64,000 nucleotides of DNA from Deltaproteobacteria bacterium. Its GTDB lineage: Bacteria; Desulfobacterota; Dissulfuribacteria; Dissulfuribacterales; UBA3076. The DNA lies in contig JAGYNZ010000002.1 of NCBI GenBank assembly GCA_018399745.1, positions 77,543-141,542 of the forward strand, written 5' to 3'. Below the pieces are notes generated by a model, which was given only the letters and a program-made list of their open reading frames with translations, did no database searches and was not told the DNA's origin. Below are positions 7,079 through 22,864 of this stretch, one piece after another. How positions within the stretch are numbered: the first letter of the stretch is position 1; every line of letters starts with the position of its first letter. The translations under genes were made by a program, and so were the position numbers.

Positions 7079-8149
7079 TCAATGACTGCCAGGTCTTTTT
7101 ACAGGTAATCTAATCGTAAAAGTAGATCCCTTGCCTAGTTCGCTTTCCACTGAGATTGTGCCCCTGTGGGCCTGAATAATCTTAAGCGCATAAGTGAGGC
7201 CAAGCCCGGCATGGATCTTTGAAGTAAAAAAAGGGTCCAGGATACTCTTCAGTTTGTCCCTTGGGATGCCGACCCCTGTATCGGAAACATCGATCTCAAT
7301 ATATCCCTCCCTGACACGGCTGGCTATATTCAGTTCGCGCGTCTTATTACGCATTGCCTCAATTGCGTTTTCAATGAGATGTGCAATCGCTATCTTAATC
7401 TGTTTTCTATCAACAGAGATATTAGGAAGATTATCCATCAAATCAGTCGTGACATCTACATGATTTTCTTCAAGTGCAGGCCTGTATTCTTCCAGTGCTT
7501 TGGCAATAATCTCATTGATATCTACCGGCTCTCTATAAGATATTACAGTGGCCTGCAGCTCAATGAGCTTTTTTATCATATGTTCCAGCGTCTCAACATT
7601 TTGTACAATCAATTTAAGATATTTTCTGTTTGGATCACTTTCAGAAAGAGATTCACAGATCCTTCGCGCAAACCCTCCAATAGTAACAAGAGGATTTCTT
7701 ATCTCATGAGCCACTTGATCCATCATCTTTTCTAATGCCTCTGATTTTTCCTCTTTCAGTAACTTCTCACGCTCCGCCTTCATGCTGATCAATGACCGTA
7801 TTCTTGTAACAAGCTCTTTATAATCAAAGGGCTTGGCAAGGTAGTCATCTCCCCCGATATCGAGGCCTTTGCAAGTGCTGTCAACATCGCCTTTTGCAGT
7901 GAGCATGAGGACCGGTATATAACGGGTACTCTCGTCCTCTTTGAGCCTCTTGCATACCTCAAAGCCATCCAGTTTTGGCATCATAATGTCCAGCAAAATC
8001 AGATCGGGCTCATATTCAGTAACCTTCTTAAGGGCTTCTTCGCCATCGTATGCCTCAGCAGTGTCATACCCGTCAGCGCGAAGCCGCTTCTTCAAGAGTT
8101 CTACGGTATCCACGTTATCTTCAACGATCAGGATTTTGTTTTTATTCAC
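7079..8149 (-). CDS. Response regulator-histidine kinase hybrid (REC-HisKA-HATPase)
   Basis: The soluble 356-residue protein has an N-terminal receiver domain (ILIVEDN, phospho-acceptor in LLDIMMPKLDG, conserved lysine in LAKPFDY). A kinase follows, with the phospho-histidine in VAHEIRNPLVTIGGF near residue 148 and an ATPase domain (HLIENAIEAM, DTGVGIP, GLGLTYALKI). No sensor or membrane segment is present, so it should act as a phosphorelay node fed by another kinase. The start is a GTG. It lies downstream of, and in the same direction as, the receiver protein at 8425 and the haem kinase at 8835, which may be its partners; this is inferred from position only. Confidence 0.93.
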   Translation of the reverse strand: MNKNKILIVEDNVDTVELLKKRLRADGYDTAEAYDGEEALKKVTEYEPDLILLDIMMPKLDGFEVCKRLKEDESTRYIPVLMLTAKGDVDSTCKGLDIGGDDYLAKPFDYKELVTRIRSLISMKAEREKLLKEEKSEALEKMMDQVAHEIRNPLVTIGGFARRICESLSESDPNRKYLKLIVQNVETLEHMIKKLIELQATVISYREPVDINEIIAKALEEYRPALEENHVDVTTDLMDNLPNISVDRKQIKIAIAHLIENAIEAMRNKTRELNIASRVREGYIEIDVSDTGVGIPRDKLKSILDPFFTSKIHAGLGLTYALKIIQAHRGTISVESELGKGSTFTIRLPVKRPGSH

Positions 8150-8424: not shown

Positions 8425-8820
8425 TCATATAGTTTTTTTCGCGTAGTTTTCGATCTGATCCGGCAACACGTGCACATTTATCGGTTTTGATATATATCCG
8501 TTAAAACCGGCCTTCAAGGCCTTTTCTTCATCTCCTTTCATTGCATGCGCGGTCAACGCAATTATCAAGGTGTGTTTAAACTCCTTTCGAAGCCGCAGAT
8601 TTTTTACAACCTCATAACCTCCCATTTTCGGAAGTGAAATGTCTAAGAGGATAATATCCGGCTGTTCTGCAATCGCCTTTTCCAAGCCATCTTCTCCATC
8701 GAAGGCTTCAATTAGCTGATAATTGCGGTTTTTTAAGATCTTTATTACCAGCTCTCGACTATCCTGGTTGTCCTCAACTATCAGCAATTTTTTCTCAGGA
8801 ACCTTCTCGGTTTCTTTCAT
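8425..8820 (-). CDS. Single-domain response regulator (REC only)
   Basis: The 131-residue protein is one receiver domain with no output domain: acidic pair in LLIVEDN, phospho-aspartate in ILLDISLPKMGG, conserved threonine in ALTAHAM, and lysine in ISKPINV. It resembles DivK-like phosphorelay shuttles. It starts 14 bases after the end of the haem-binding hybrid kinase (8835-11582) on the same strand, so the pair is probably co-transcribed and it is the obvious phosphate acceptor. This pairing is inferred from adjacency. Confidence 0.93.
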   Translation of the reverse strand: MKETEKVPEKKLLIVEDNQDSRELVIKILKNRNYQLIEAFDGEDGLEKAIAEQPDIILLDISLPKMGGYEVVKNLRLRKEFKHTLIIALTAHAMKGDEEKALKAGFNGYISKPINVHVLPDQIENYAKKTI

Positions 8821-8834
8821 GTCATCTCCGTCTA

Positions 8835-11582
8835 TCAGGCGCTTTTTATCTCATCAATCCTGTCTTTGAGTTCTTGTAAAAGATCTTCTTCTTTAAGCCT
8901 GCCTTTATTTAATATACCACGTAACCTGCCGTTCAGAGCGTCTTTCTCGTTTTTACTCAAGTCCTTTTTAGTAATAAGAATAAGAGGAATATTTTTAGCA
9001 CTTTCTTCTGTTTTTATATGCTCGATTACATCAAAACCATTCACCTTGGGCATTGTCAGGTTCAATATAATCAGATGAGGCATGAAATTCTTTACCTGCT
9101 CGATCGCATCCTGGCTGTTATAAGCTATCTTTACCTGACACCCAACTTCTTGCAAGGTATGTTCGATCAGCGATACCGTATCTTTTTCACTATCTACGAC
9201 AAGTATCCGCTGTATTTTGCCTGATTTTTCCAAGTCTTTTATCTTTTTGAGTAAAAAATTCTTATCTAAAGGCTTTACCATATATTCCGCAGCACCTAAA
9301 CTGAATCCCAGCTTTTTATTATCTACAATTGAAAGGACGATTACCGGAATATCTCGAGTCTCAGGCGCACTCTTTAGCTCCCGCAACACCTGCCACCCAT
9401 CCTTATGCGGCATCATGATATCCAGAGTAATGGCTACCGGTTTTATCTCTATGGCCTTTTCAACCGCCTTTTCCCCGCTGAGAAGACCTACTATTTCATA
9501 TTCATCTTTTAAAGACTTCCTGATGATATCAATAGCGTCTGGATTGTCATCTATTGCCAGAATAAGCTTTTGGGAGGTACCCTCTGGAGACAATGAATCT
9601 GCCCCAGAGATTCCGGAATCCTCTGCCCCAAGCACCAGTTCCTGTATGACCCTACAATCTATACAACAAGCAAGTTTCTCCGGATAAGAACCGATTTTCT
9701 GCCTTGCGCACTGTGTCCCGGTAATGAGCCAGCAACGCCTTTCTTCACTGTCATAGGCAGGGCAATTTTTTTGTCCACAATGGATGTATTCGTGACACCT
9801 TAAGGGCTTGCCGGCATAGTGGGGTTCCTTTAAAAAGGTCTCGACCGGTACACCGAAGTGCTCAGCCAGTTCATTAGCCACTCGCAAGTCTATAATCGGC
9901 TCAGTTCCAGTTTCCAGCACCTCTTTTCTGAGAGGAATGGTGAAATAGAATCGACTTCCCTCGCCGTACTTACTTGTAGCCCAGATTATGCTGTTGTGCA
10001 TTTCAATCAGTCCCCTTGCAATACTGAGTCCTAGTCCGGTCCCTTCATATTGTCGAACAGTAGAAAGATCAGCCTGCACGAACTTGTCAAAGATCTTGTC
10101 GAGATCCTCTTTCTTTATCCCGATACCGGAATCCTCTACACAGACCTCTGCAAATATGGGGGATCCACCAAGTTGATGAATACCACGCTTGGATGTCCTG
10201 GCATGGATTTTTATGCTCCCCTCATCGGTAAACTTGATTGCATTAGACAGGAGGTTCATTAAAACATGTTTTATCTTACTCTTGTCGCCATAGACTAAAG
10301 GCAGATTTTCATCTATATCAAAGTCTAAAGAAAGGCCTTTTTGGGCTATTGTTGCCTCAAACATAGGCACTACTGAATCAATGAGTCCTTTTAGGTTGAA
10401 CTGTTCTGCTTCTATCTCGATTTTTCCTGCTTCTATCTTGGAGAGATCGAGAAGATCATTTAACAATTGTAAAAGGTGCCTTGCATTATTGGAAATTCTG
10501 CTTAAGCTCTTTTCCTGTTCCTCGTTGATTGGTCCATCAACTCCGTCCAGCAATAAATCTGAATATCCGATAATAGAATTCATCGGTGTCCTGAGCTCAT
10601 GAGACATATTTGCCAAGAATGTAGATTTTAGCTCGTCAAGTTCTCTAAGTTGGTCGTTTGCCTGTTCCAATAGCTTTATAAGTCTGGTCCTCTCGTTTAA
10701 TAATTCAGTTTTTCTGGCGACTTCACTTTCAAGTCTTTTGTTGAATTGAGAAGCCCTTTGAACCATATAGTTAAATGAGTTGCCAAGTACCCCTATTTCA
10801 TCTTCTGAAACTACTTTTACCGAAACGGATGTGTCACCTTCGGCAAATCTCCTTGCCTTAACAGCCAGATCTTTCACAGGTTGCGTGATGAATCTGGTCA
10901 TCATAGCATAAATTATTGTTATAATTAAAGATATTCCAATAAAACTTATCAGTATACTCCTGTTTCTGGCAGTAGCGACCATCGAATAAGCACGCTCCAC
11001 ATCCGCTCCTACCAGCATGCCACCCAGAACTTTTCTGGAGGAGCCATGACAGTGATAGCAGTCTTGATGATTCAAAATAGGCTGTATGGTAACAAGGATC
11101 TTTCTACCTCTAAGTTCTACATCAAATGATTTCTCCGGTGGTGCTCCTGAGCTCAATGCCTTTCTTAAGGCCCTCAGTAGCTCCTCATCAGAGATAGAAT
11201 CGGCAACATATGTCTCTTCCGTTTCCTTATGTGTGGACCACGTGATCTCTTGCTCAAAATCGCATACCCACGCCTCTATATCTTCCATCTTTGCCCCGAC
11301 GTTTGACAAGACCTTCATTACAGCCTCACTATTTCCTATATGCATTGGATATTTTATGCCGGAAAAGATCGACTCGGCCACCTCTACATTAAAAGTTGCA
11401 GCCATCTCTATTCTGTCTTTTGTCCCAAAGTATACTCTAAAAATAATTTCAGCCGCTAGAAACAGGACTAGGCTGATTATTACAGTACCCATTATCTTGT
11501 TTGCAAAACTCTTTCTTATAAAATCAAACATCCTGTCCTCAGCAATGCCGTACCTATCAGAATCGCTAATGCGCTCCTCCAT
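8835..11582 (-). CDS. Haem-binding hybrid histidine kinase with two-CW cysteine cluster and two receivers
   Basis: The domains of this 915-residue inner-membrane protein run as follows. A membrane helix (~30-52) leads into a periplasmic sensor (~53-205) with a c-type haem motif CYHCH at 175-179. A second helix (~207-228) and HAMP follow. A kinase core carries the phospho-histidine in MSHELRTP at about 328. The ATPase domain (LLSNAIKF, DSGIGI, GTGLGLSIA) comes next. A ~50-residue cysteine cluster (RCHEYIHC, CPAY, RRCWLITGTQC, PEKLACCIDC) precedes two receivers (LDIMMPHKDG; LNLTMPKVNG). The sensor resembles Tll0287/DUF3365-type single-haem domains, also seen in the kinase at 16015. Its 5' end overlaps the tetrahaem cytochrome gene by 17 bases, so the two are coupled. 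I infer that it reads periplasmic redox state or a haem ligand; what the cysteine cluster binds is unknown. Confidence 0.92.
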   Translation of the reverse strand: MEERISDSDRYGIAEDRMFDFIRKSFANKIMGTVIISLVLFLAAEIIFRVYFGTKDRIEMAATFNVEVAESIFSGIKYPMHIGNSEAVMKVLSNVGAKMEDIEAWVCDFEQEITWSTHKETEETYVADSISDEELLRALRKALSSGAPPEKSFDVELRGRKILVTIQPILNHQDCYHCHGSSRKVLGGMLVGADVERAYSMVATARNRSILISFIGISLIITIIYAMMTRFITQPVKDLAVKARRFAEGDTSVSVKVVSEDEIGVLGNSFNYMVQRASQFNKRLESEVARKTELLNERTRLIKLLEQANDQLRELDELKSTFLANMSHELRTPMNSIIGYSDLLLDGVDGPINEEQEKSLSRISNNARHLLQLLNDLLDLSKIEAGKIEIEAEQFNLKGLIDSVVPMFEATIAQKGLSLDFDIDENLPLVYGDKSKIKHVLMNLLSNAIKFTDEGSIKIHARTSKRGIHQLGGSPIFAEVCVEDSGIGIKKEDLDKIFDKFVQADLSTVRQYEGTGLGLSIARGLIEMHNSIIWATSKYGEGSRFYFTIPLRKEVLETGTEPIIDLRVANELAEHFGVPVETFLKEPHYAGKPLRCHEYIHCGQKNCPAYDSEERRCWLITGTQCARQKIGSYPEKLACCIDCRVIQELVLGAEDSGISGADSLSPEGTSQKLILAIDDNPDAIDIIRKSLKDEYEIVGLLSGEKAVEKAIEIKPVAITLDIMMPHKDGWQVLRELKSAPETRDIPVIVLSIVDNKKLGFSLGAAEYMVKPLDKNFLLKKIKDLEKSGKIQRILVVDSEKDTVSLIEHTLQEVGCQVKIAYNSQDAIEQVKNFMPHLIILNLTMPKVNGFDVIEHIKTEESAKNIPLILITKKDLSKNEKDALNGRLRGILNKGRLKEEDLLQELKDRIDEIKSA

Positions 11583-12042
11583 GAATCAAGGGCTTATATC
11601 TGAAGGCCTTGACCCTTTCTGATGTATGACAGACCTCACAGTCTTTCATGGTCAGCTCTTTTTTGATATACAGAGGGCTCTTTTTCTTTACATGGAATTC
11701 ACCCGGGCCATGGCATACTTCACAGCCGGCATTCTTCAAGTGGGGCGTCTCCTCAAGACTGACAAAGCCACCCGGTTTGCCATATCCCGTTGTATGGCAG
11801 AAATAGCACTTATGGATTTCTTCCTCGGTGAGACCCTTTTTCACTCTTTGTATGCTCTTGAATGAAGTACTCTTTTTTGCATATGTGCTGAAACTTGAAT
11901 ATTCTTTTGGATGGCAATTCTTACAAGCCTCTGAGCCAAGGTATTTTGGGGTTTTGGTATTATTTTCAACTCTGGCTTTGTCAGGAATAAAAAATATGAG
12001 GATTATTAATATTACTATGACAATGGCAAAAAAGTCTCTCAT
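11566..12042 (-). CDS. Small membrane-anchored tetrahaem cytochrome c (c554-like)
   Basis: The 158-residue protein has an N-terminal hydrophobic segment (residues ~4-19) that lacks a clear cleavage site, so it may stay as an anchor. Four CxxCH haem sites follow: CKNCH, CYFCH, CEVCH and CEVCH. The middle matches the cytochrome c554 pattern, with CHTTGYGKPGGFVS and TPHLKNAGCEVCHGPG. It is a clear paralogue of the protein at 15524, sharing CHTTGxGxxGGFVSxExTPH. Its stop overlaps the start of the haem kinase at 8835-11582. I infer a periplasmic electron carrier that may exchange electrons with the kinase's haem. It is unlikely to be hydroxylamine-oxidation machinery, as no such genes are near. 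Confidence 0.92.
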   Translation of the reverse strand: MRDFFAIVIVILIILIFFIPDKARVENNTKTPKYLGSEACKNCHPKEYSSFSTYAKKSTSFKSIQRVKKGLTEEEIHKCYFCHTTGYGKPGGFVSLEETPHLKNAGCEVCHGPGEFHVKKKSPLYIKKELTMKDCEVCHTSERVKAFRYKPLIHGGAH

Positions 12043-12841
12043 TGCGCTCCAGCCTTAATGATTTTTTAATCTAAGAACGCCTCATGCAAAATCGCTGATA
12101 GCCACTGTATTTTTCACAAAAACCATGGCAATATTGTCCAACGGCTATTATGTATATATAATACTGTTACTTTTTGTAGTAGCAACGCCATTTAGCCTTG
12201 TCAAGCATGGGAATATGCTCTGGGCATAAGACAAACTTGGTTGAGACCGTGTTGAATTTAACTTAGGGTTTAATCCCCCGTCCTATAAAAAACAAAAAAG
12301 ATTTGCCTGGGTAGTCAGACTGATATTGCCAATTTCTTTCAAGCAGGTTACAAAGTAATTTTAAAATAATACTATTATAATTTAATATGCACGTATTATA
12401 AAATTAATTTTAAAACAAACATCAAAACAAGAAGGAGGGGCATACCATTAAGAGAACATAAAAAATAATTCTTGCATTGGTTTTTCTTTTAACCACCGCT
12501 TTTGGGGTTTCAGTTACTCTATACAATATTACATAATGATAGAAGCGGTGTTTATATTCTGGAGTTTTGTTTGTATTTGTGCCCTTATCGCGGGTGCATA
12601 GCTATTTCATCAAGTCTTGTGCGAAATTTTTGTTTCAGCAAAGGACGTGGGAGTATGCTCGCACATGAATCTCTGGTATTGCATTTTAAGAAAATTTTTA
12701 GCCGTTATTACGATGATTGAAGCAACAAAACAATCTTGATAATTCACACAAACAAGGCACGAGATTGCTGTGATAACGCTTTCAATGACAACTTTTTATT
12801 AAAATGCTATACGAGGTTCTATAGTGAGAAAGAGAGGTAGG
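12043..12841. other. Long divergent intergenic region with a possible signal-peptide relic
   Basis: About 780 bp separate the two divergent cytochrome genes, and no convincing ORF is present. At 12431-12438 a strong ribosome site (AAGGAGGG) is followed by ATT AAG AGA ACA TAA and then a frame reading KIILALVFLLTTAFGVSVT. That looks like a secretion signal interrupted by a stop and lacking a proper start. The region is AT-rich around 12360-12420. I see no clear promoter or regulator box. Confidence 0.4.
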
Positions 12842-14014
12842 ATGGTGCTCAAAGCAAAGTTTCTCATAATATGTATTTTCGGTTTCACGATATTGCTGGC
12901 TGGTGGCGGCATCAACTCGTCGAGTGCCATGGAAACCGATGAATGTCTGGAATGCCATGGCGATTCGTCTTTTTTCGATGAAGACAGTCCTCTATATGTG
13001 GACGGTATTCAATTCGCCAGTACGGCACACGCAGAAGATGGTTGCGGATCCTGCCATTACGTGACTGATGATCATCCGGATGATGGGGTTCAGCCCGAAA
13101 AAGAAAGCTGTGACATGTGCCATGAAGATACTGTTGATGAGTTATCAAGGGGCCTTCATGCTGGAAATGCGGAATGTATAGACTGCCACGATCCCCATGC
13201 AGTTAAAGGGCTCAAGTCTCCTGGTGAAAGTTGTGGCATGTGTCATGACGAGGCCGTTGAAGAGTATTTAAGCAGTCCCCATTCAGAAAACGCTGTTTGC
13301 TCTGATTGTCACAGTCCCCATACAGTGATAGGCCATTTTGAGATCTCGGGTTTTGAAAAAAATAAACAGTGTATTGCCTGCCACGAAGATGCCGGCCATT
13401 CTGAATGGCTTCTCAGGAACAAGCTCCATATGCAGGCAACTACGTGTATAAGTTGCCATACCGATTCAAAAGGCATTGTTATCACCATGTATATTGAGAA
13501 AAGAGAGGATGTCGAACCAGATAAAAAAGGTGAAATTGCTCTGGCAACTTATCGAGATCTTACGCAATTAGTCGGAGACAGGGGGGTTCAATCTCTCATA
13601 GATACCAATGGCGATGGCTTTATCGCAACAGCAGAACTGAAAGAGTTTAATGGGAATTCAGAATATAAGAGCGTAGGGCTCTGGGGGGTGCTGTCAACAG
13701 AGACATCAAGTCACGTTTATGGAGTATTTGAAGACCGGAGGGATTGTTCCTTCTGTCACGCTGCCGGACCAAAAGCCATGCAGACTTGTTATGTGGCTTT
13801 TCCAAATCAAGATGGTACATTCAGCAAGGTTGCTGTTGAAGAAGGGGCAGTGCTTGACCCTCTGTTTGCTACCCCTGACTTCTACATGGTAGGCTCCACC
13901 AGAAACAACATCCTCAGTATTTTGGGCCTGCTAATTATAGCCGGCGGCCTGGGTGCAGCCACCCTTCACGGCACTTTCAGAATTCTTACCCGAAAAAACA
14001 GGAGGAAACATTGA
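12842..14014 (+). CDS. Nonahaem cytochrome c with EF-hand loop and C-terminal membrane anchor
   Basis: This exported cytochrome has nine CxxCH sites (CLECH, CGSCH, CDMCH, CIDCH, CGMCH, CSDCH, CIACH, CISCH, CSFCH). Two starts are possible: the GTG at 12824, with GAGG eight bases upstream, or the ATG at 12842 used here, which gives a cleaner signal peptide. A canonical calcium-binding loop, DTNGDGFIATAE, lies between the eighth and ninth haem sites. A membrane helix near the C-terminus (ILGLLIIAGGLGAATLHG) is followed by basic residues. The next gene is a cytochrome b overlapping or abutting this one, so together they resemble a quinone-linked cytochrome c/b complex carrying electrons across the inner membrane. 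Direction and partner are not shown by the sequence. Confidence 0.93.
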   Translation: MVLKAKFLIICIFGFTILLAGGGINSSSAMETDECLECHGDSSFFDEDSPLYVDGIQFASTAHAEDGCGSCHYVTDDHPDDGVQPEKESCDMCHEDTVDELSRGLHAGNAECIDCHDPHAVKGLKSPGESCGMCHDEAVEEYLSSPHSENAVCSDCHSPHTVIGHFEISGFEKNKQCIACHEDAGHSEWLLRNKLHMQATTCISCHTDSKGIVITMYIEKREDVEPDKKGEIALATYRDLTQLVGDRGVQSLIDTNGDGFIATAELKEFNGNSEYKSVGLWGVLSTETSSHVYGVFEDRRDCSFCHAAGPKAMQTCYVAFPNQDGTFSKVAVEEGAVLDPLFATPDFYMVGSTRNNILSILGLLIIAGGLGAATLHGTFRILTRKNRRKH

Positions 14015-14016
14015 TC

Positions 14017-14649
14017 ATGGAAAAGCCAAAAATGATCTATCTCAACCCTCTTACAGTGAGGATATGGCATTGGATTCACGCCATTGGAATAATAATTCTA
14101 TGCATTACAGGGGCTCAGATCAGGTTTCCTGAGTATATTAATCTCTTTGGCAGCTATAGAGCAGCGGTAATAATTCATGATTTTACCGGGATCTTCGTGT
14201 GCATCGACTGGTTGCTATGGTTTTCATATTACGTATTTATTGATAAGAGCCTTATAAAGCTCTATCTGCCCACCCTTAACGACCTGAAGACTGGTATCGT
14301 AAGACAGATGCTGTTTTATGGCTTCAACTACTTCAAGGGTGGACCGAACCCTCACCACGCCACGCCTGATAACAAGTTCAACCCTATGCAGAAAGGGGCA
14401 TATCTGATGATCATGATGCTTCTTGTACCTATCGTCCTGGTGTCCGGCCTGCTGCTTCTGCTGATTACACATCAGTGGATGGTGGCATTAGGGGGAGTAA
14501 AAATAGTTATCGGGATACATTTTCTGGTAGCCTGTTGTTTTGCTGCCTTTCTTTTTGTCCACATGTATCTGGCTACTCTGGGTCATACCTTCTGGGCCCA
14601 TATCATAACCATGATAACTGGCTGGGAGGAAGAGGTAGAAGAGCATTAA
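14017..14649 (+). CDS. Cytochrome b subunit (formate dehydrogenase gamma/cytochrome b561-like)
   Basis: This ~210-residue integral membrane protein has four hydrophobic spans and histidines placed as in di-haem cytochrome b subunits: WHWIHAIG in helix I, IIHDFTG in helix II, and HFL and VHMYLATLGH in the last span. It probably takes electrons from or gives them to the quinone pool and passes them to the nonahaem cytochrome encoded just upstream. AGGAGG at 14000-14005 could serve the TTG at 14011 (overlapping the upstream stop) or the ATG at 14017 chosen here. A perfect hairpin ends the transcript 12 bases after the stop. Which enzyme the complex serves is unknown. Confidence 0.88.
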   Translation: MEKPKMIYLNPLTVRIWHWIHAIGIIILCITGAQIRFPEYINLFGSYRAAVIIHDFTGIFVCIDWLLWFSYYVFIDKSLIKLYLPTLNDLKTGIVRQMLFYGFNYFKGGPNPHHATPDNKFNPMQKGAYLMIMMLLVPIVLVSGLLLLLITHQWMVALGGVKIVIGIHFLVACCFAAFLFVHMYLATLGHTFWAHIITMITGWEEEVEEH

Positions 14650-14660
14650 TCAATATCGAC

Positions 14661-14699
14661 AATAGATTGAGACGATTTTCAAAATCGTCTCAATCTATT
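14661..14699. terminator. Perfect 39-bp palindrome, probable bidirectional terminator
   Basis: AATAGATTGAGACGATTTT is followed by a single C and its exact reverse complement, giving 19-bp arms. It lies between the convergent cytochrome b gene and receiver gene. The TTTT/AAAA at its centre and the AT-rich ends suit a terminator working in both directions. Confidence 0.7.
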
Positions 14700-14733
14700 A
14701 TTTGGAAGGCCTGCTTTCTAAATTTGTCTTTGT

Positions 14734-15168
14734 TTACTTATCTTTTAAAACTTCCTTGATTAGTTCAATCAACTCGACGGGATCAATTGGTTTTTCAATA
14801 TAGCCATCTGGAATAGTATATTTTGCCAATCCCGTGCTCTCAGCGAATTTCTTTTCATCCCGAAGCGGTTGTTTAAACATAAAGTTTCTAAAATCGACCC
14901 CCGTCACCTCAGACACCCCGGTTTCAACGATCACGGGAGTATTGCTCATGTCTGGATCCTTTCTCAATTCCTGAAACATGGCAATGCCGCTTTTTCTGGG
15001 CATCATAAGATCGAGCAAGACTAGATCAGGCCTCTCCTTGCGCAAAAGTTCCAGCCCCTCAACACCATCACTGGCACTTATGCTTAAATAACCGTTGTCT
15101 TCAAGGACCGCGCTGATAAAGGTAATAATATCAGGTTCATCGTCTACGATAAGTATCTTTTTAGCCAT
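14734..15168 (-). CDS. Response regulator (REC only) with an insertion
   Basis: The ATG at 15168 is preferred over the longer track start: GGAAG precedes it and the protein then begins MAKKILIVDDEP. The 144-residue protein is one receiver domain with phospho-aspartate in VLLDLMMPRKSG and lysine in YIEKPIDPVEL. About 30 extra residues (DFRNFMFKQPLRDEKKFAES and onward) sit between beta-4 and the conserved lysine, where most receivers have a short loop. There is no output domain. It faces the cytochrome b gene across a palindrome and lies between the two cytochrome-kinase pairs; its kinase is unknown. Confidence 0.9.
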   Translation of the reverse strand: MAKKILIVDDEPDIITFISAVLEDNGYLSISASDGVEGLELLRKERPDLVLLDLMMPRKSGIAMFQELRKDPDMSNTPVIVETGVSEVTGVDFRNFMFKQPLRDEKKFAESTGLAKYTIPDGYIEKPIDPVELIELIKEVLKDK

Positions 15169-15442
15169 TTTCTTCCTTGCTCCTATAATTACTGAGAAAG
15201 CACTTAAAAAAGCCTGTTTCTTCAACTAATCCAATACATAGCACAGAATATTCCGGTTTGAAAGACAAAATGCCGATAACCTTCTGCCTCCATGTCTTTT
15301 TTGCGCTTCAAAAGACTTCATCTTGAGGCATCGTGGAGCAGTAAGATTGTTCCGATCCTGCTTGATTCGATGAGCGGGTTTTTATATAATTATATCGGTA
15401 AAGTTCGCAAAACTGACGCATTGTGCGATTCAGTTAAACTCT

Positions 15443-15477
15443 GTTTTATCCATTATACTACGTAATGGGATAAAATT
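15443..15477. promoter_or_regulatory. Imperfect inverted repeat upstream of the tetrahaem cytochrome
   Basis: TTTTATCCATTA and TAATGGGATAAAA form 12-bp arms with one bulged G around a seven-base loop, about 45 bp before the start of the cytochrome gene. The placement fits an operator or promoter-proximal element. No known regulator consensus is matched. Confidence 0.35.
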
Positions 15478-15523
15478 ATATTTTTCCCGATTTTTGATGT
15501 GGAATCCTTAAAGGAGGTTGCCG

Positions 15524-15964
15524 ATGAAAATAGAAAAACTATCTATCACCATGGCCACAGGGCTTTTGGGTTTCTGTCTCTTTGTTTTTCCTGTATCTCA
15601 TCTTCAGGCTGAAAAAGAAAAGGCCTTCTACGTTGGAATGGATAAGTGCAGTGAATGTCATTCAGAACACGTGGAAAGCTATCGCTCTTGGAAATACTCA
15701 AAAAATTTTAGGGTCTTACAGATGAGAAAAAAAGATCATGATCCCGACTGTCTGCCCTGCCATACGACAGGCTTTGGGGAAATAGGAGGATTTGTCAGTG
15801 TGGAAAAAACCCCGCATATGGTCAATAAACAGTGTGAAAGTTGTCATGGTCCGGCCAGCTTACATCTTAAGGCCCCGACTAGACTGGAACATCAAAAGAC
15901 ATTGAGCATTCCAAAGAATATCTGTACAAGCTGTCATAGCGGGCACAAGCATCCGGGCTACTGA
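15524..15964 (+). CDS. Periplasmic tetrahaem cytochrome c (c554-like)
   Basis: The start is the ATG at 15524, six bases after a strong AAAGGAGG; the track's TTG at 15518 is too close to that site. The signal peptide (~1-29) ends at HLQA. Four haem sites follow: CSECH, CLPCH, CESCH and CTSCH. The stretch CHTTGFGEIGGFVSVEKTPHM, continuing to CESCHGP, matches the cytochrome at 11566-12042, so the two are paralogues. The stop is 50 bases before a kinase with its own haem site (16015-17718), repeating the arrangement seen at 8835-12042. I infer a periplasmic redox carrier linked to that kinase. Confidence 0.93.
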   Translation: MKIEKLSITMATGLLGFCLFVFPVSHLQAEKEKAFYVGMDKCSECHSEHVESYRSWKYSKNFRVLQMRKKDHDPDCLPCHTTGFGEIGGFVSVEKTPHMVNKQCESCHGPASLHLKAPTRLEHQKTLSIPKNICTSCHSGHKHPGY

Positions 15965-16014
15965 GCCGTTGAATTACCTGCCATCATCAGCATGATACTA
16001 TATAACAAGTTGAA

Positions 16015-17718
16015 ATGATACCTCTTTTAGACAAATTATGGATAAAGCTTCACATAACCAGTGTCACAGAAAAGGTGATAATGGGTATGAGTTTAATTTT
16101 AATTACTGTAATAGGTATTCTAACTTACTATGATATGGTGACACGAATAAAGTATCATCTTGAAAGGCAGGAAGAACAGGCGTATCAGATCAGTAACACT
16201 GTAATGAGAAGTGTTGAATACCCCATGCTCGACGGAGAAATGGAGGTCGTGCAGGCCATTCTGGAAAGCTTGTATAAAACAAAGGTCTTGAGTGTTGTAA
16301 ATCTTTGCGATCTAACAGGCACCATCAGATACAGCGGATTACCAGCAAATGTAAAAAAGTTTGACGATTCACAGGCCACTGAAGAGGCAATACGCACCGG
16401 TTCTTTGGTAAAAAACCTGGAAGTAAAGAAAGGAGAAAAGATACTCCTCCATGCCATGCCTATTATGAATGAGAAAGACTGCTATAAATGTCATGGAAGT
16501 GACAATGAAATATTGGGGATTTTAACCGTAGGAACTAGTTGGGATCCGGTAGAGGAACGAGTAACAGAAATGCGTAACAGAGAAGTTGTCTGGGGCCTGG
16601 CTTCTGTTATTATTGTGGGTGTCTTTTTATTTATTTTCTTATCCAAACTCGTTACCAAACCTCTCTCTTTTCTTACACGATTGTCCGATGAAATCAGCCG
16701 CGGGAAAACAAAATTAGATCTTGATTTTGGCCGGGAAGTCAGATGCTGGGAGATAGAAAAATGTACAAAAACTGACTGCCCCGCGTATGGAAATACCTCG
16801 ACTATGTGCTGGTACATGGACGGAACACTCTGTTTTGGTCAGCCGTCAGGGAGCTTTCCGGAAAAGCTGGATGAGTGTCGTGAATGCAAAGTATATAAAT
16901 CTCATGTGGGTGACGAGATGGTCCAGTTGGCAGATTCCTTTAAACATATGGTCTCTAAACTGGATTTTTCTGAAAAAGAGATAGAAAAATTAGAAAAAAG
17001 GACCCAATTGATTCAGGCCAGTAAGATGTCCACCTTGGGTGAGATGGCATCAGGCGTAGCCCACGAGTTAAATCAACCTTTAAGTGTTATTAGAATGGGC
17101 GCCACTGTTCTGTCAAAGATGATCAAAAAGGGCCAAAAGATTGAGAATAAAGAATTAAGAACCGTGATTGAAGAAATTGTTGGTCAGGTGGATAGGGCAT
17201 CGGCGATCATCAATCATATGAGGGATTTTTCAAGGATTGGTGTCGAGATGACAGAGCTGGATGTGAATGAGCCTATCAGAAATATCTTTGGGATATTGGG
17301 ACAACAGTTCAAGGTACGTAATATAGAGATAGATCTGGACCTTGATGATAACCTGCCCAATATAATGGCAGATAGTAATAAATTGGAGCAAGTCCTTTTG
17401 AACCTGGTTGTCAATGCCCGGCAGGCCATTGAGGAAAAAGGTAAAACAGGTGGTAAAGTGACAATAAAGTCATTTTCAGATAAAGGACAGGTCGCTATTT
17501 CAGTGTCTGATACAGGCAAGGGCATCCCCGAACATATACTTGATAAGATATTTGAACCATTTTTTACTACTAAAAAAGTTGGGGTGGGAACGGGATTAGG
17601 CCTGTCCATCAGCTATGGAATTGTCAAGGATTATGATGGAACCATAGATGTACATAGTGAGGTAGGGACTGGAACGACATTCCTGTTGAGATTTCCTCCA
17701 TGTTCAAATGCTAAATAA
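16015..17718 (+). CDS. Haem-binding sensor histidine kinase with two-CW cluster
   Basis: In this 567-residue inner-membrane kinase a helix (~21-38) leads into a periplasmic sensor with c-haem motif CYKCH at 156-160. A second helix (~192-210) and a HAMP-like linker follow. The two-CW cysteine cluster (RCWEIEKC, CPAY, MCWYMDGTLC, FPEKLDECREC) is at 243-291. The phospho-histidine lies in VAHELNQPLS at 350, and the ATPase domain (LLNLVVNARQAI, DTGKGIPE, GTGLGLSISYG) completes the protein. The sensor shares YPM, G, E and V spacing and the haem site with the kinase at 8835, but here the cysteine cluster sits between HAMP and kinase core. It is probably co-transcribed with the tetrahaem cytochrome upstream and the REC-PAS kinase downstream. 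Confidence 0.92.
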   Translation: MIPLLDKLWIKLHITSVTEKVIMGMSLILITVIGILTYYDMVTRIKYHLERQEEQAYQISNTVMRSVEYPMLDGEMEVVQAILESLYKTKVLSVVNLCDLTGTIRYSGLPANVKKFDDSQATEEAIRTGSLVKNLEVKKGEKILLHAMPIMNEKDCYKCHGSDNEILGILTVGTSWDPVEERVTEMRNREVVWGLASVIIVGVFLFIFLSKLVTKPLSFLTRLSDEISRGKTKLDLDFGREVRCWEIEKCTKTDCPAYGNTSTMCWYMDGTLCFGQPSGSFPEKLDECRECKVYKSHVGDEMVQLADSFKHMVSKLDFSEKEIEKLEKRTQLIQASKMSTLGEMASGVAHELNQPLSVIRMGATVLSKMIKKGQKIENKELRTVIEEIVGQVDRASAIINHMRDFSRIGVEMTELDVNEPIRNIFGILGQQFKVRNIEIDLDLDDNLPNIMADSNKLEQVLLNLVVNARQAIEEKGKTGGKVTIKSFSDKGQVAISVSDTGKGIPEHILDKIFEPFFTTKKVGVGTGLGLSISYGIVKDYDGTIDVHSEVGTGTTFLLRFPPCSNAK

Positions 17719-17741: not shown

Positions 17742-19268
17742 TTGAAGCTTTTACTTATTGATGATGAAGAACCGGCAAGGAAGATTGTTGGAATGTCGCT
17801 GAGAAATGACGGTTACGAGGTGCTGACGGCTGAGAATGGCAAAAGAGGCCTTGAGTTATTTGAAAAAGAAGCGCCCCCAATTGTCTTAACTGATATAAAG
17901 ATGCCCGGTATGGACGGCATCGAGGTATTGAAAAGGATTAAGGAAATAAGCCCTGAAACCGAGGTTATAGTTGTTACCGGGCATGGCGATATGGACGTGG
18001 CTATTCAGTCTCTGCAACTTGAGGCATCTGATTTTGTCACCAAGCCTATTGTGGACGAAGCCCTGACAGTTGCCCTAAAACGGGCAAAGGAAAAGCTTCG
18101 TTTAAGGAGGATGCTCAAGGAGTATACTGAGAATCTGGAAGATAAGGTAAAGCAAGCCACAGAGGAGTTAAGGCGCAGGTATTCCTTTACGAGCATGCTG
18201 ATCCAACATTCCATAGACGGTATAATAGGCACTGATAAACATGGGAAAATAATGGTCTTCAATCAAGGAGATGAGAGAATATTTGGATATTCCAGGGATG
18301 AAGTAATAGGGAAGCTTGATATAAGCAGTCTTTATCTACCTGAGATAGCTGAAGAAATAATGCAAGGTATGCATGGCAAAGAACGAGCAACGCAGGACCT
18401 GCATGCCTGGCGAGAGACCTTTGTTGTGGGCAAGAACGGTGACAAGATACCGGTTAAGTTCTCAGGAACTATTCTGTATCAAAAGGGTGAGGTCATTGGC
18501 AGCGTGGGTTTTCTCCACGATCTCAGGGAAATCAAGCGGCTACAGAGGGAATTGATCAAGTCCGAGAGGTTGGCTGCCACCGGAGAAACTGTAGCAGGAC
18601 TTGCCCATGGTATCAAAAACATCCTAGGCGGTCTTAAAGGAGGGGTTTATATAGTAGACAACGCAATTAAGAAGGAGGATATGCATAGCCTCAGAACTGG
18701 CTGGGAAATGGTGAAAAGGAATATTGACAGAATCTCAGATCTGGCTGTTGACCTCCTCAACTACTCCAAGGAGCGAGAGCCTGAATATGAAAAGTGCTCC
18801 CCGAATGAAATCGCTGAAGATGTGTGTAAACTAATGGATATCAAGGCAAAGGAATCCGGAATAAAGATTGTCAGAGATTTTGATCCAAACATAGGCGATG
18901 TAACTATAGACCACAAAGGAATTCATCGCTGTCTTCTTAACCTGGTCTGGAATGCCATTGATGCCTGTGTATTTGATGAAGACGAAGGCAAAGAATACAT
19001 AGTACGGGTAACTACAAAGCGCGAAGGTGATGAAGCGTTTATTCTTCAGGTCTCTGACAATGGTTCCGGTATGAATGAGACCGTAAGAAAGCAAATCTTC
19101 ACCTCTATATCCAGCACCAAGGGGTCAAAAGGTACAGGTCTCGGCCTGCTTGTTACCCAGAAAACAGTCCATGAGCATGGTGGGACTATAAAAGTGGATT
19201 CTGAACCTGGAAAAGGGTCAACCTTTGTCATCAGGCTGCCTTCTGAGCCTAAACCCCATCAAGGCTAA
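17742..19268 (+). CDS. REC-PAS-histidine kinase hybrid
   Basis: The soluble 508-residue protein has an N-terminal receiver (LLIDDEEPA, VLTDIKMPGMDG, TKPI), a coiled-coil linker (~120-145), and a PAS domain (~150-265, DGIIGTDKHGKIMVFN). The kinase has its phospho-histidine in GLAHGIKNILGG near residue 288 and an ATPase domain (NLVWNAIDAC, DNGSGMN, GTGLGLLVTQK). The start is a TTG, 23 bases after the haem kinase stop, so it is probably the next relay step from that kinase. The HGIKN phospho-site is of the NtrB-like kind rather than the usual HELRTP. Its downstream target is not evident. Confidence 0.93.
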   Translation: MKLLLIDDEEPARKIVGMSLRNDGYEVLTAENGKRGLELFEKEAPPIVLTDIKMPGMDGIEVLKRIKEISPETEVIVVTGHGDMDVAIQSLQLEASDFVTKPIVDEALTVALKRAKEKLRLRRMLKEYTENLEDKVKQATEELRRRYSFTSMLIQHSIDGIIGTDKHGKIMVFNQGDERIFGYSRDEVIGKLDISSLYLPEIAEEIMQGMHGKERATQDLHAWRETFVVGKNGDKIPVKFSGTILYQKGEVIGSVGFLHDLREIKRLQRELIKSERLAATGETVAGLAHGIKNILGGLKGGVYIVDNAIKKEDMHSLRTGWEMVKRNIDRISDLAVDLLNYSKEREPEYEKCSPNEIAEDVCKLMDIKAKESGIKIVRDFDPNIGDVTIDHKGIHRCLLNLVWNAIDACVFDEDEGKEYIVRVTTKREGDEAFILQVSDNGSGMNETVRKQIFTSISSTKGSKGTGLGLLVTQKTVHEHGGTIKVDSEPGKGSTFVIRLPSEPKPHQG

Positions 19269-19879: not shown

Positions 19880-21142
19880 TCACATCAACAGGTAAATTAA
19901 TACTAAAAAAATCGTAGCCGTGGCAGCACTTATACCTATGGGTGAGGTATGTGTCTGGATGGCCGCTCGAGTCCTTTCGATTTTGTCCTCGAGGTCTTTT
20001 CCCTTTATACCAGTGACACTCCATAGGGGAATCATAGCCCCAAGACAGAGTACCTCAGGCCAGCGTTGGGATATGCGGCAGATAGATCCAGTTAATTCAC
20101 CCACAATGACCCTGTCAGCGACCCTGGTCAATCCATTCATGCTGATATCCATGACCCGGTAAAAAAGCCCGCCACCCTTGCGGTAGAACCAGTCAGCATC
20201 AAGATTGACAGCCCTCAACTCAGAGGGAGACATGCCGGAGAGCGTTAGAAGTATAAAGGCAAAAGCGGCAAAGAAAATTAGCTGGGTCTGACCTACCACA
20301 TGCGGAACCGTGTATGGTACATAATCAACCGGATATGGGAGAAGACTGTACAGGTAACTGGGAAATGATCCGTTGAAGATGCAGAAGAATGCTGCAATGC
20401 CCATGGCAAGAAGCATATGGAGGGGCGCCTCCCTGGGTCTCAGCCCAGAATCATGTCCGAAAAACGCAAAAAACGGAATCTTGATACCAGCATGTTCCAG
20501 CACACCAACTGATGCAAACAGAAGAATGAACCATATGATTTGCATATGACCGGTAGCAGCGGCTTCCATGACCATTGACTTACTGACAAAACCACTGAAC
20601 AGCGGAACAGCGGATATGGATGCGGCCCCTATTATACAGCAGATACAGGTGAGCGGCATGGTCCGGTACAGTCCACCTAATGCGGTGCAGTTGATCTTCC
20701 CGCCGGTACGGTACATTACCGCGCCCATGGACATGAACAGCAAGGCCTTGAAGAGGATATCGTTTACGGCATGGGAAACAGCTCCATTTAGGGCCATTTG
20801 TGTCCCAATGCCGATTCCGCATACCATGAATCCTACCTGGTTGATCAAGCTGTAGGACAGCACACGCCTGAGATTGTTTTCAATTACCGCATAGAAAATA
20901 GGGAATGCGGTCATAATCGCACCGATCCATATAAGGGCTTCGGTGCCAGGAAAGGCCCTGGCAAGAGCGTATACAGCACACTTTGTAGTAAAAGCGCTCA
21001 GAAATACGGTCCCGGTAATTGTGGCCTCCGGATAGGCATCCGTCAGCCATGGATGGAGAAAAGGCCAGGCGCAATTTACGCCAAAACCAAGAAAAATTAA
21101 TAAGGTGGCAAGTCCATTAAGTCCGATATACCCCCAACCCAT
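19880..21142 (-). pseudogene. N-terminally truncated Na+/H+ antiporter (MrpD/NuoL-like) subunit
   Basis: The 420-residue membrane protein belongs to the proton-conducting antiporter family shared by MrpD and NuoL/M/N. It begins at what should be helix 7 (FLHPWLTDAYPEA), followed by TGTVFLSAFTTKCAVYALARAF and VLSYSLINQVGFMVCGIGIGT. Full members are about 480-570 residues and carry helices 1-6, including a key glutamate in helix 5; all that is missing here. The ORF starts inside the end of the PAS gene, and no partner antiporter genes are near. The simplest reading is a gene cut by a rearrangement (or an assembly join) near 21125. The family call is good; activity is doubtful. Confidence 0.8.
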
Positions 21143-21642
21143 TTATTTGATTTGCCTTCCTGATCTAAAACAGGAGAACTATTATCATTCCAATATCTTA
21201 TTGAACCATCTTTGCATCTTACCCTGTATGAATATTCTACAGGTTTTATTGATTCTTTATGTAATAAGAAGGTATCTTCAAGTAAGTGCCTATCGTCTGG
21301 ATGAATTAAACGCAACCAATTCTCAAAAGTATGTTTAATTTCCCCGGTTTTATAACCCAATGTGCTATCAATATTACCAAACCACTGCAATGTATTGCTC
21401 TCAATATCCCACTCATAGAAGATGTCATTTGTTGATTGAGCAATAAGACGAAAACGTTGCTCATTATCCCGTAAGGCCTTCTCTGATTTTTTTCGCTCAG
21501 CTATAAAATTATTTAACATTTCAACTTCTCTTAAACGTTTTTGTCCGGTTTGTTGCGCAATATTTTTATAATACTTCACCTGCTTTTCTAACTCTGTGCA
21601 TCTTTGTTTTAATTCTTTTTCTAAATTGATTTTTGCGGACAT
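21097..21642 (-). pseudogene. PAS-domain protein cut at its C-terminus
   Basis: The 181-residue product has a coiled-coil start (~5-55) leading to a PAS fold with PAC motif: NEQRFRLIAQSTNDIFYEWD, GYKTGEI, LIHPDDR, SYRVRCKDGSIRYW, and WVGGISD near residue 170. PAC motifs normally run on into an output domain such as a histidine kinase. Here the frame ends in LMDLPPY within the antiporter sequence. It starts two bases after the stop of the FIST gene, so it was probably the kinase partner of that sensor. Truncation at the same point where the antiporter starts argues for a breakpoint. Confidence 0.8.
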
Positions 21643-21643
21643 T

Positions 21644-22864
21644 TTACTGGTCCTCAGCCAAGATCATTAAGATGCCTGTCCAATCAAGTCCCCTGCTCTT
21701 TCCGAGGAGAGGAGCAATTTCAACGCCAGAGTAAAATCCTAACAAAGGGGTGTTGTGTCTGTTCATTACCTTTTGAACTTCCATAGCTTCTTCTGTTAAT
21801 GTATTTGATTGCTCTGCTGCCCTTCCTGCACAATCAATATACAATCCGAAAACGGGTCTTTTCCCGTCGTCTTTTATATTTTTCATTAGGCATTCTGAAT
21901 TGTTTTTTGCAGATTCAATCATCATATCTCCATCCCTCAACATAAACTGAATTTCCATGCCTTGCTCAAGATCTGTCTCAAAGATTCGAATGCCGCTGTC
22001 ATCCGGAAGAATTCCTGTAATCAGTCTATTAACATATTCGTCTTCCCGATATTCAAATTTTTCACCATAATTTACTCCAATTGTTAAGAGGTTGACAGGA
22101 TACTGTTTTCCCCAACTTTCATTTCCATATAATTCGTCAATTATTTCAACAATTGGTCGTTCATCCAGTTCATAAATATGAGATCCTTGCATTTTTGTTA
22201 TTTTATGATATTCGCCATCAATTGGAGAACAACCGTGCATTATAGTATGATAAACATTAATAGATCCTGAAAGAAGTGCTCCGACAACACTATGCTCACA
22301 TACATTAGTACTGCAGAATTGTGTCGTATTACTAAATTGATAGTCCCCAATTAATCCGGCACCGATTATTGGTGCATTCGACTGGAGTATTGATTCCATT
22401 CCAAAAATTAATGGAGGGGATGCATTAATGATAGGAGGAGATATAGGAGACGCAGGAACTTTTATTGAGTCATAAAACATAAGCAAGAGTCTGTCTTCTT
22501 GTGTCTTAGATAATTTTCTTGCCAAACTATGCCCTGCCAGCCTTTCATCTTTGTCTAGACCGCCAGCTGTAGCAATTTGATACTTTATATCATCTAATTG
22601 AAATATTGCAACGCCTGAAGGATAGCCTTTATATGTTAAATAATCATTAGTAATAATGCCGATTGTTGAACCGCCAATTACAGGCGTATTTCCCAATGTC
22701 TCTTTAACGCCCCTCAAAAATTCTTTATGATCCAATTGGCCACTGCAAAAAGCAAGAATAAAATCAGGTTTATCCGTAATCACGTCACGAGCTGCAATAT
22801 TTGCTGCTGTTTTGCCAGAATAAAAAGCATCTTTTTTATTACAATATCCAATTCCAACCTTCAT
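21644..22864 (-). CDS. FIST domain sensory protein
   Basis: The 406-residue protein matches the FIST_N plus FIST_C architecture, a ligand-sensing module of bacterial signal transduction. Visible features are an N-terminal DFILAFCSGQLDHKEFLRGV, GNTPVIGGSTIGII, a central IIGAGLIGDYQF, and the C-terminal GLYIDCAGRAAEQSN with TPLLGFYSGVEIAPLLG. The family is thought to bind small ligands, possibly amino acids, usually alongside kinases or cyclases. The PAS gene directly downstream (two-base gap) would be the output partner but is truncated. The gene is visibly more AT-rich than the antiporter fragment beyond the breakpoint. Confidence 0.9.
   Translation of the reverse strand: MKVGIGYCNKKDAFYSGKTAANIAARDVITDKPDFILAFCSGQLDHKEFLRGVKETLGNTPVIGGSTIGIITNDYLTYKGYPSGVAIFQLDDIKYQIATAGGLDKDERLAGHSLARKLSKTQEDRLLLMFYDSIKVPASPISPPIINASPPLIFGMESILQSNAPIIGAGLIGDYQFSNTTQFCSTNVCEHSVVGALLSGSINVYHTIMHGCSPIDGEYHKITKMQGSHIYELDERPIVEIIDELYGNESWGKQYPVNLLTIGVNYGEKFEYREDEYVNRLITGILPDDSGIRIFETDLEQGMEIQFMLRDGDMMIESAKNNSECLMKNIKDDGKRPVFGLYIDCAGRAAEQSNTLTEEAMEVQKVMNRHNTPLLGFYSGVEIAPLLGKSRGLDWTGILMILAEDQ

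Follow-up and report, generated by a model that had tools for sequence, protein, structure and literature searches.

A small tetrahaem cytochrome is linked to, and diverges with, a c-haem receptor in two bacterial phyla

Why should a small periplasmic cytochrome with four haem sites stand directly before a sensor kinase that carries a haem-binding motif of its own, and why twice in one stretch of DNA? We addressed this question for two such gene pairs in 64,000 nucleotides of the Deltaproteobacteria bacterium assembly GCA_018399745.1, the whole of which we call the window. An earlier sequence-only reading had described the pairs as a duplicated module, and its list of parts held: the window encodes two small cytochromes, each with four CxxCH motifs and a PF13435 match, and two kinases, each with a periplasmic sensor whose PF21563 match contains one CxxCH (Table 1). 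The clusters of seven to eight cysteines that it had claimed for the kinases are likewise real (eight Cys at aa 596-643 of HK1, seven at aa 244-291 of HK2).

Table 1. Genes and domains of the two cytochrome-receptor modules and their neighbours in the window.
Feature	Position	Strand	Basis and remarks
REC-HisKA-HATPase protein, final gene of the cyt1-HK1 run	7079..8149	-	Pfam
Single-domain REC (CheY/DivK-like), behind HK1	8425..8820	-	PF00072
HK1, hybrid histidine kinase	8835..11531 (probable start)	-	Pfam; ORF opens at 11582
Two-CW cysteine domain of HK1	9618..9797	-	8 Cys, cytoplasmic side; NF045718 28.4 bits, below cut-off 35
cyt1, small periplasmic tetrahaem cytochrome	11566..12042	-	PF13435 7.1e-19; family alignments A1, A3, A5
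Nine-CxxCH membrane-anchored cytochrome, between both modules	12824..14014	+	EF-hand-like DTNGDG loop, C-terminal anchor
Cytochrome b561-type membrane subunit, paired with the nine-haem cytochrome	14011..14649	+	PF01292 3.5e-20
cyt2, small periplasmic tetrahaem cytochrome	15524..15964	+	PF13435 5.6e-13
HK2, simple kinase	16015..17718	+	Pfam; Cache fold model
Two-CW cysteine domain of HK2	16744..16923	+	7 Cys; NF045718 43.2 bits, above cut-off 35
REC-PAS-HK protein, directly 3' of HK2	17742..19268	+	Pfam; 23 bp gap

The minus-strand run opens with cyt1, a protein of 158 aa with an N-terminal hydrophobic segment and the C-terminus HGGAH, which is near-invariant in type-1 cytochromes; it is coded by a purine-rich GGAGG that could double as ribosome-binding site for the next gene. 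HK1 follows, in the order TM, c-haem Cache sensor (CYHCH), TM, HAMP, HisKA, HATPase, two-CW, REC and REC. Its gene is present where it had been placed, at 8835-11582, and only the start needs revision: as its orthologues in loci L028 and L025 comprise 898 and 897 aa, translation probably begins at 11531 (898 aa) rather than at 11582, which removes the overlap of HK1 with cyt1. An equivalent of the single-domain REC also stands behind the hybrid kinase at many further loci (including L025, L028 and L095), and the gene order ending in the REC-HisKA-HATPase protein is common to L028, L025 and L095. On the plus strand, cyt2 (146 aa, with a signal peptide-like N-terminus and the ribosome-binding site AAGGAGGT) precedes HK2, in which TM, c-haem Cache sensor (CYKCH) and TM lead to two-CW, HisKA and HATPase.

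Both sensors match the PF21563 family Mcp40H-20_sensor (HK1 3.3e-07, 31.0 bits; HK2 1.4e-09, 38.7 bits; curated cut-off 27), and the Pfam search returned no match of either to PF11845 (DUF3365/Tll0287) at E<=0.01. The AF2 model of the HK2 sensor has a Cache fold (pLDDT 88.8), for which Foldseek found GSU0935 (3b42, 4e-7) and the extracellular domain of WalK (5is1, TMt 0.75). Throughout 37 aligned sensors CxxCH and one Met are invariant, and this Met, part of a YPM motif (aa 71 in HK2), aligns with Met60 of GSU0935 and is a putative distal ligand. In GSU0935 itself, Met60 is the distal ligand that binds the reduced haem and leaves the oxidised haem, a Met/water redox switch, and the published potentials of the two Geobacter sensors, GSU0935 and GSU0582, are -251 and -156 mV (PMC8396549).

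GSU0935 and GSU0582, the Mcp40H class of PF21563, thus resemble the window sensors in their Cache/PAS-like fold, single CxxCH, distal Met and fused signalling outputs. The difference lies in the neighbourhood: L105-L108, the highest-scoring PF21563 chemoreceptors and the loci closest to that class, have no cytochrome gene within ~1.3 kb upstream, whereas the window sensors belong to a distinct subfamily, found mainly on kinases and accompanied by a tetrahaem cytochrome. The sCache_heme family (DUF3365/Tll0287) is similar too, consisting of periplasmic Cache domains with an inserted CxxCH that are fused to HK or MCP; the available part of its description names a Flavobacteria fusion to a cytochrome_c-like domain and names no adjacent cytochrome gene (PMC12889525). 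The window sensors match PF21563 instead of PF11845.

The cytochromes share with Nitrosomonas c554 (1BVB) the tetrahaem c-type constitution, PF13435 and the GF/GG and CHGPG segments. They differ from it in length (158 aa in cyt1, 211 aa in c554), in aligning only in part and in role, and a full cytochrome c554 is ruled out by scores of 35.8 and 41.9 bits, far below the cut-off of 400 bits of the NCBIfam c554 equivalog NF043010. The UshA-like PCGU protein (NF041198) was rejected as well, since its C-terminal tetrahaem part alone aligns (83 and 78 vs 275 bits). Three haems of Nitrosomonas c554 are bis-His ligated and one is five-coordinate. In our family alignment A3 a single non-motif His is invariant, and a C-terminal His is near-invariant in type 1 only; at least one haem may therefore be open, ligand-binding or catalytic, and not a pure relay.

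Whether cytochrome and receptor belong together can be read from their linkage, and the sequence-only reading had held that adjacency lost in related genomes would speak against a functional unit. We searched a cytochrome profile and then a sensor profile in 297 Desulfobacterota genomes, where the cytochrome scores leave a gap between 148 and 104 bits, with 48 matches above it, nearly all of them small proteins, and mostly UshA-like proteins of ~400 aa below. Each of these 48 family cytochromes is followed directly by a sensor gene of the same orientation, 30-662 bp away from domain to domain, while two borderline small proteins (100-104 bits) in the same genomes have no adjoining sensor. Read from the other side, 39 of the 54 sensors scoring at least 100 bits there have a cytochrome. 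All 14 strong cytochromes in 148 Nitrospirota genomes are also paired, as read from match coordinates, so that over both phylum surveys 62/62 family cytochromes are followed at once by a co-oriented sensor gene. In GTDB species genomes, a scan of contigs covered the best 80 of 344 matches, of which those with enough flanking sequence were counted as informative; here, 72 of 75 informative cytochromes are paired. The three unpaired ones among these best 80 (L072, L097 and L103, two of them in EthSRB1 MAGs) come from genomes that hold sensors of the same subfamily elsewhere, and the lone cytochrome of L103 sits between transketolase and phosphofructokinase genes. The counts therefore indicate that the cytochrome is hardly ever found away from the receptor, whereas the receptor is also found with no cytochrome beside it. 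Adjacency is conserved across two phyla, and the proposed functional unit of cytochrome and haem sensor is well supported.

The genome of the window itself contains exactly three PF21563 sensors and exactly three cyt1 relatives, paired one to one. In the third pair, on contig C27, a 165-aa cytochrome that is 62% identical to cyt1 is followed by a chemoreceptor, with a CheW-like gene on the other side. Nearly every sensor in the window's genus is paired; the exceptions are three chemoreceptor-type loci (L017, L020 and L021), in which a haem sensor of the paired type is carried by a receptor without adjacent cytochrome.

The partners also diverge together. Over 90 distinct cytochrome-sensor pairs, distances between cytochromes and between sensors are correlated with a Mantel r of 0.78, and 0 of 2000 permutations reached this value. 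Species relatedness is cancelled in a within-genome test, in which the two pairs of one genome are set against all outside pairs; here r was 0.50-0.90 in 10 of 11 comparisons, the exception being CALZHT (r -0.13), whose two cytochromes are fairly similar. In 65 kinase pairs the cytochrome tracks the sensor with a partial r of 0.69, and the kinase domain of the same polypeptide with a partial r of only 0.30. By the cytochrome tree the output switched between kinase and chemoreceptor four times, and by the sensor tree three times; shuffled output labels on the cytochrome tree give at least 14 switches.

These outputs also bear on the notion of a duplicated module. cyt1 and cyt2 are 32% identical, whereas cyt1 reaches ~60-80% identity with cytochromes from Nitrospirota and from other orders; the sensors of HK1 and HK2 are 21% identical, and the kinase parts are unlike, HK1 being a BarA-like hybrid with two REC domains and HK2 AtoS-like. 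Identities so low and kinases so different rule out a local tandem duplication: the paralogy of cytochromes and sensors stands, as an ancient one, and the literal duplication does not. To judge from their sequences, the two modules are ancient paralogues with exchangeable outputs of unrelated kinase types.

The two-CW cysteine cluster had further been taken for a constant second input, a claim that we cannot uphold. Sorted by pattern, with Pfam checks, the 90 receptors comprise ~53 kinases with two-CW, 16 kinases without it (some of them truncated) and 21 chemoreceptors, none of which has the cluster. Missing from all chemoreceptor versions and present in about three quarters of the kinase versions, it is ruled out as an obligatory second sensor. 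Its position differs as well: in HK1 it follows the ATPase domain, whereas in HK2 it precedes DHp, and the two kinases therefore do not have one shared architecture. Both show the Cys pattern of the NCBIfam two_CW_domain (NF045718), although the HK1 copy remains below the family's cut-off. The cluster thus appears as a frequent add-on outside the core module.

That the tetrahaem cytochrome is a dedicated partner of a haem receptor, presumably a redox-sensing one, is strongly supported by these data. Because its gene almost never occurs without an adjacent receptor in two phyla, it is probably a dedicated electron-delivering partner, and electron relay to the receptor haem is its most likely role. 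The cytochrome would pass electrons back and forth, with multihaem carriers of the periplasm on one side and the lone c-type haem of the Cache sensor on the other; on reduction of the sensor haem the conserved Met would bind the iron, and on oxidation it would be released. The Met switch would then change the Cache conformation and, via TM2/HAMP, the activity of the attached output, which is the hybrid kinase HK1 with its downstream phosphorelay, the simple kinase HK2 or the chemoreceptor on C27. That the two proteins touch, that electrons pass between them and which way the receptor responds are our inference. Taken as a whole, the model of a receptor that taps the electron pool of the periplasm via a dedicated tetrahaem cytochrome has, in our judgement, a somewhat better than even chance of being right; the many related sensors that function without a cytochrome speak against it.

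The gene neighbourhoods of some modules favour this electron-flow reading, since they include genes for very large cytochromes. At L095 (537-11358), one co-oriented run with gaps of at most 75 bp comprises genes for an NHL-repeat protein, a 22-CxxCH and a 15-CxxCH cytochrome, the tetrahaem cytochrome, the haem kinase, a REC and a REC-kinase, and the 22- and 15-CxxCH cytochrome genes also lie directly upstream of the module at L102 and L075. Such company is the exception: the majority of loci lack any further multihaem gene at distances up to 6 kb. Viewed on their own, L095, L102 and L075 are candidate extracellular electron transfer clusters with a built-in redox receptor.

The signal might instead be nitric oxide, bound by the sensor haem, with the tetrahaem protein reducing or delivering NO or a nitrogen oxide at an open-coordinated haem. 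The GSU0582 and GSU0935 domains bind CO and NO (PMC8396549; NO also PMC12889525), and the latter source, a 2026 preprint, describes a signalling-fused sCache_heme member with tight NO binding and regards members of this kind as NO sensors. A C554-like cytochrome with too few conserved non-motif His for four bis-His haems would suit this role. However, NO binds many open ferrous haems, so that binding does not identify the signal; the carriers are largely sulfate-reducer and Nitrospirota lineages, some modules stand in runs with the very large multihaem cytochromes described above, and the switchable Met is invariant, as redox gating predicts. We consider NO unlikely to be what these receptors report.

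Electrons would also be beside the point if the cytochrome docked as a protein ligand and the receptor read its apo/holo or assembly state, for example as a checkpoint of cytochrome maturation. TorC/TorS of E. coli is the closest mechanistic precedent, as there too a sensor kinase responds in the periplasm to a multihaem cytochrome; it differs in that TorS lacks a sensor haem and operates together with TorT/TMAO, and in that TorC is part of a reductase operon. Obligate linkage and parallel divergence are compatible with a dedicated binding partner of any kind, and apo-TorC binds the periplasmic part of TorS, thereby inhibiting it (PMC8534201). The invariant haem site and switchable Met of the paired sensors, however, would be superfluous for pure docking. 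The window sensor is predicted to be a Cache fold with a haem motif rather than a TorS-type four-helix sensor, and no TorT or TMAO reductase gene was found among the Pfam-scanned neighbours. A docking checkpoint therefore seems to us distinctly unlikely.

In a third alternative the cytochrome acts enzymatically, producing or consuming a small ligand (a sulfur or nitrogen oxyanion, or sulfide) that the Cache haem senses, and adjacency reflects a substrate-level circuit. The few conserved distal His would leave space for an active haem, and the cytochrome is highly conserved compared with the sensor (mean distances 0.47 vs 0.61), cyt1 being ~60-80% identical to type-1 relatives in other orders and in Nitrospirota. 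Against this, the protein is very small, and no catalytic multihaem family matches it over cut-off; its haem-free AF2 model (pLDDT 66.6), from which we draw no conclusion, has no Foldseek match at E<=0.001. We hold an enzymatic role to be very unlikely. Genetic hitch-hiking of a regulated target or mere neighbour, without functional contact, would accommodate the subfamily sensors that lack a cytochrome, but is highly improbable given a receptor behind all 62 surveyed cytochromes, a pairing that outlasts changes of output domain, and specific co-divergence.

For the electron-relay model, the novelty lies in the partner. The sensor is already known (PF21563 / sCache_heme); a dedicated cytochrome partner is undescribed as far as our search of open-licence papers shows, in which we found no described cytochrome/haem-sensor gene pair. 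Geobacter c-haem chemoreceptor sensors have been known for more than ten years and their potentials have been measured, and the sources that we consulted name no redox partner. The linked tetrahaem cytochrome is a concrete candidate, which makes electron versus gas sensing directly testable, and the pairing is conserved in two phyla and kept when the output shifts from kinase to chemoreceptor. Chances are about even that these modules represent a widespread 'wired' class of kinases and chemoreceptors, each receiving electrons via its own tetrahaem cytochrome rather than a diffusible ligand. If so, respiratory and electron-exchanging bacteria would be able to gauge how oxidised or reduced their network of periplasmic cytochromes is. 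The assemblies of L025 and L028 are assigned by Murali et al. (PMC10553843) to genus UBA3076, Seep-SRB2, 'Candidatus Desulfomithrium'; Seep-SRB2 are sulfate-reducing partners of ANME archaea and are believed to draw electrons from outside the cell, and the words 'sensor' and 'chemotaxis' are absent from the text of that paper. The presence of such ANME partners in the window's genus accords with the electron-relay model, and an ability to sense arriving electrons would be particularly interesting there.

A possible local source of electrons lies between the two modules, where the nine-CxxCH cytochrome and the b561-type subunit (12824-14649) may form a quinone/periplasm electron complex. The two genes have the same arrangement in L025 and L028, and homologues of the nine-CxxCH cytochrome adjoin the module in L025, L026, L028 and L034, the last being 49% identical to that of the window and having two haem sites fewer. 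Farther downstream, a 406-aa protein resembling a FIST-type sensory protein (21644-22864) is encoded beside a PAS-like protein (21097-21642).
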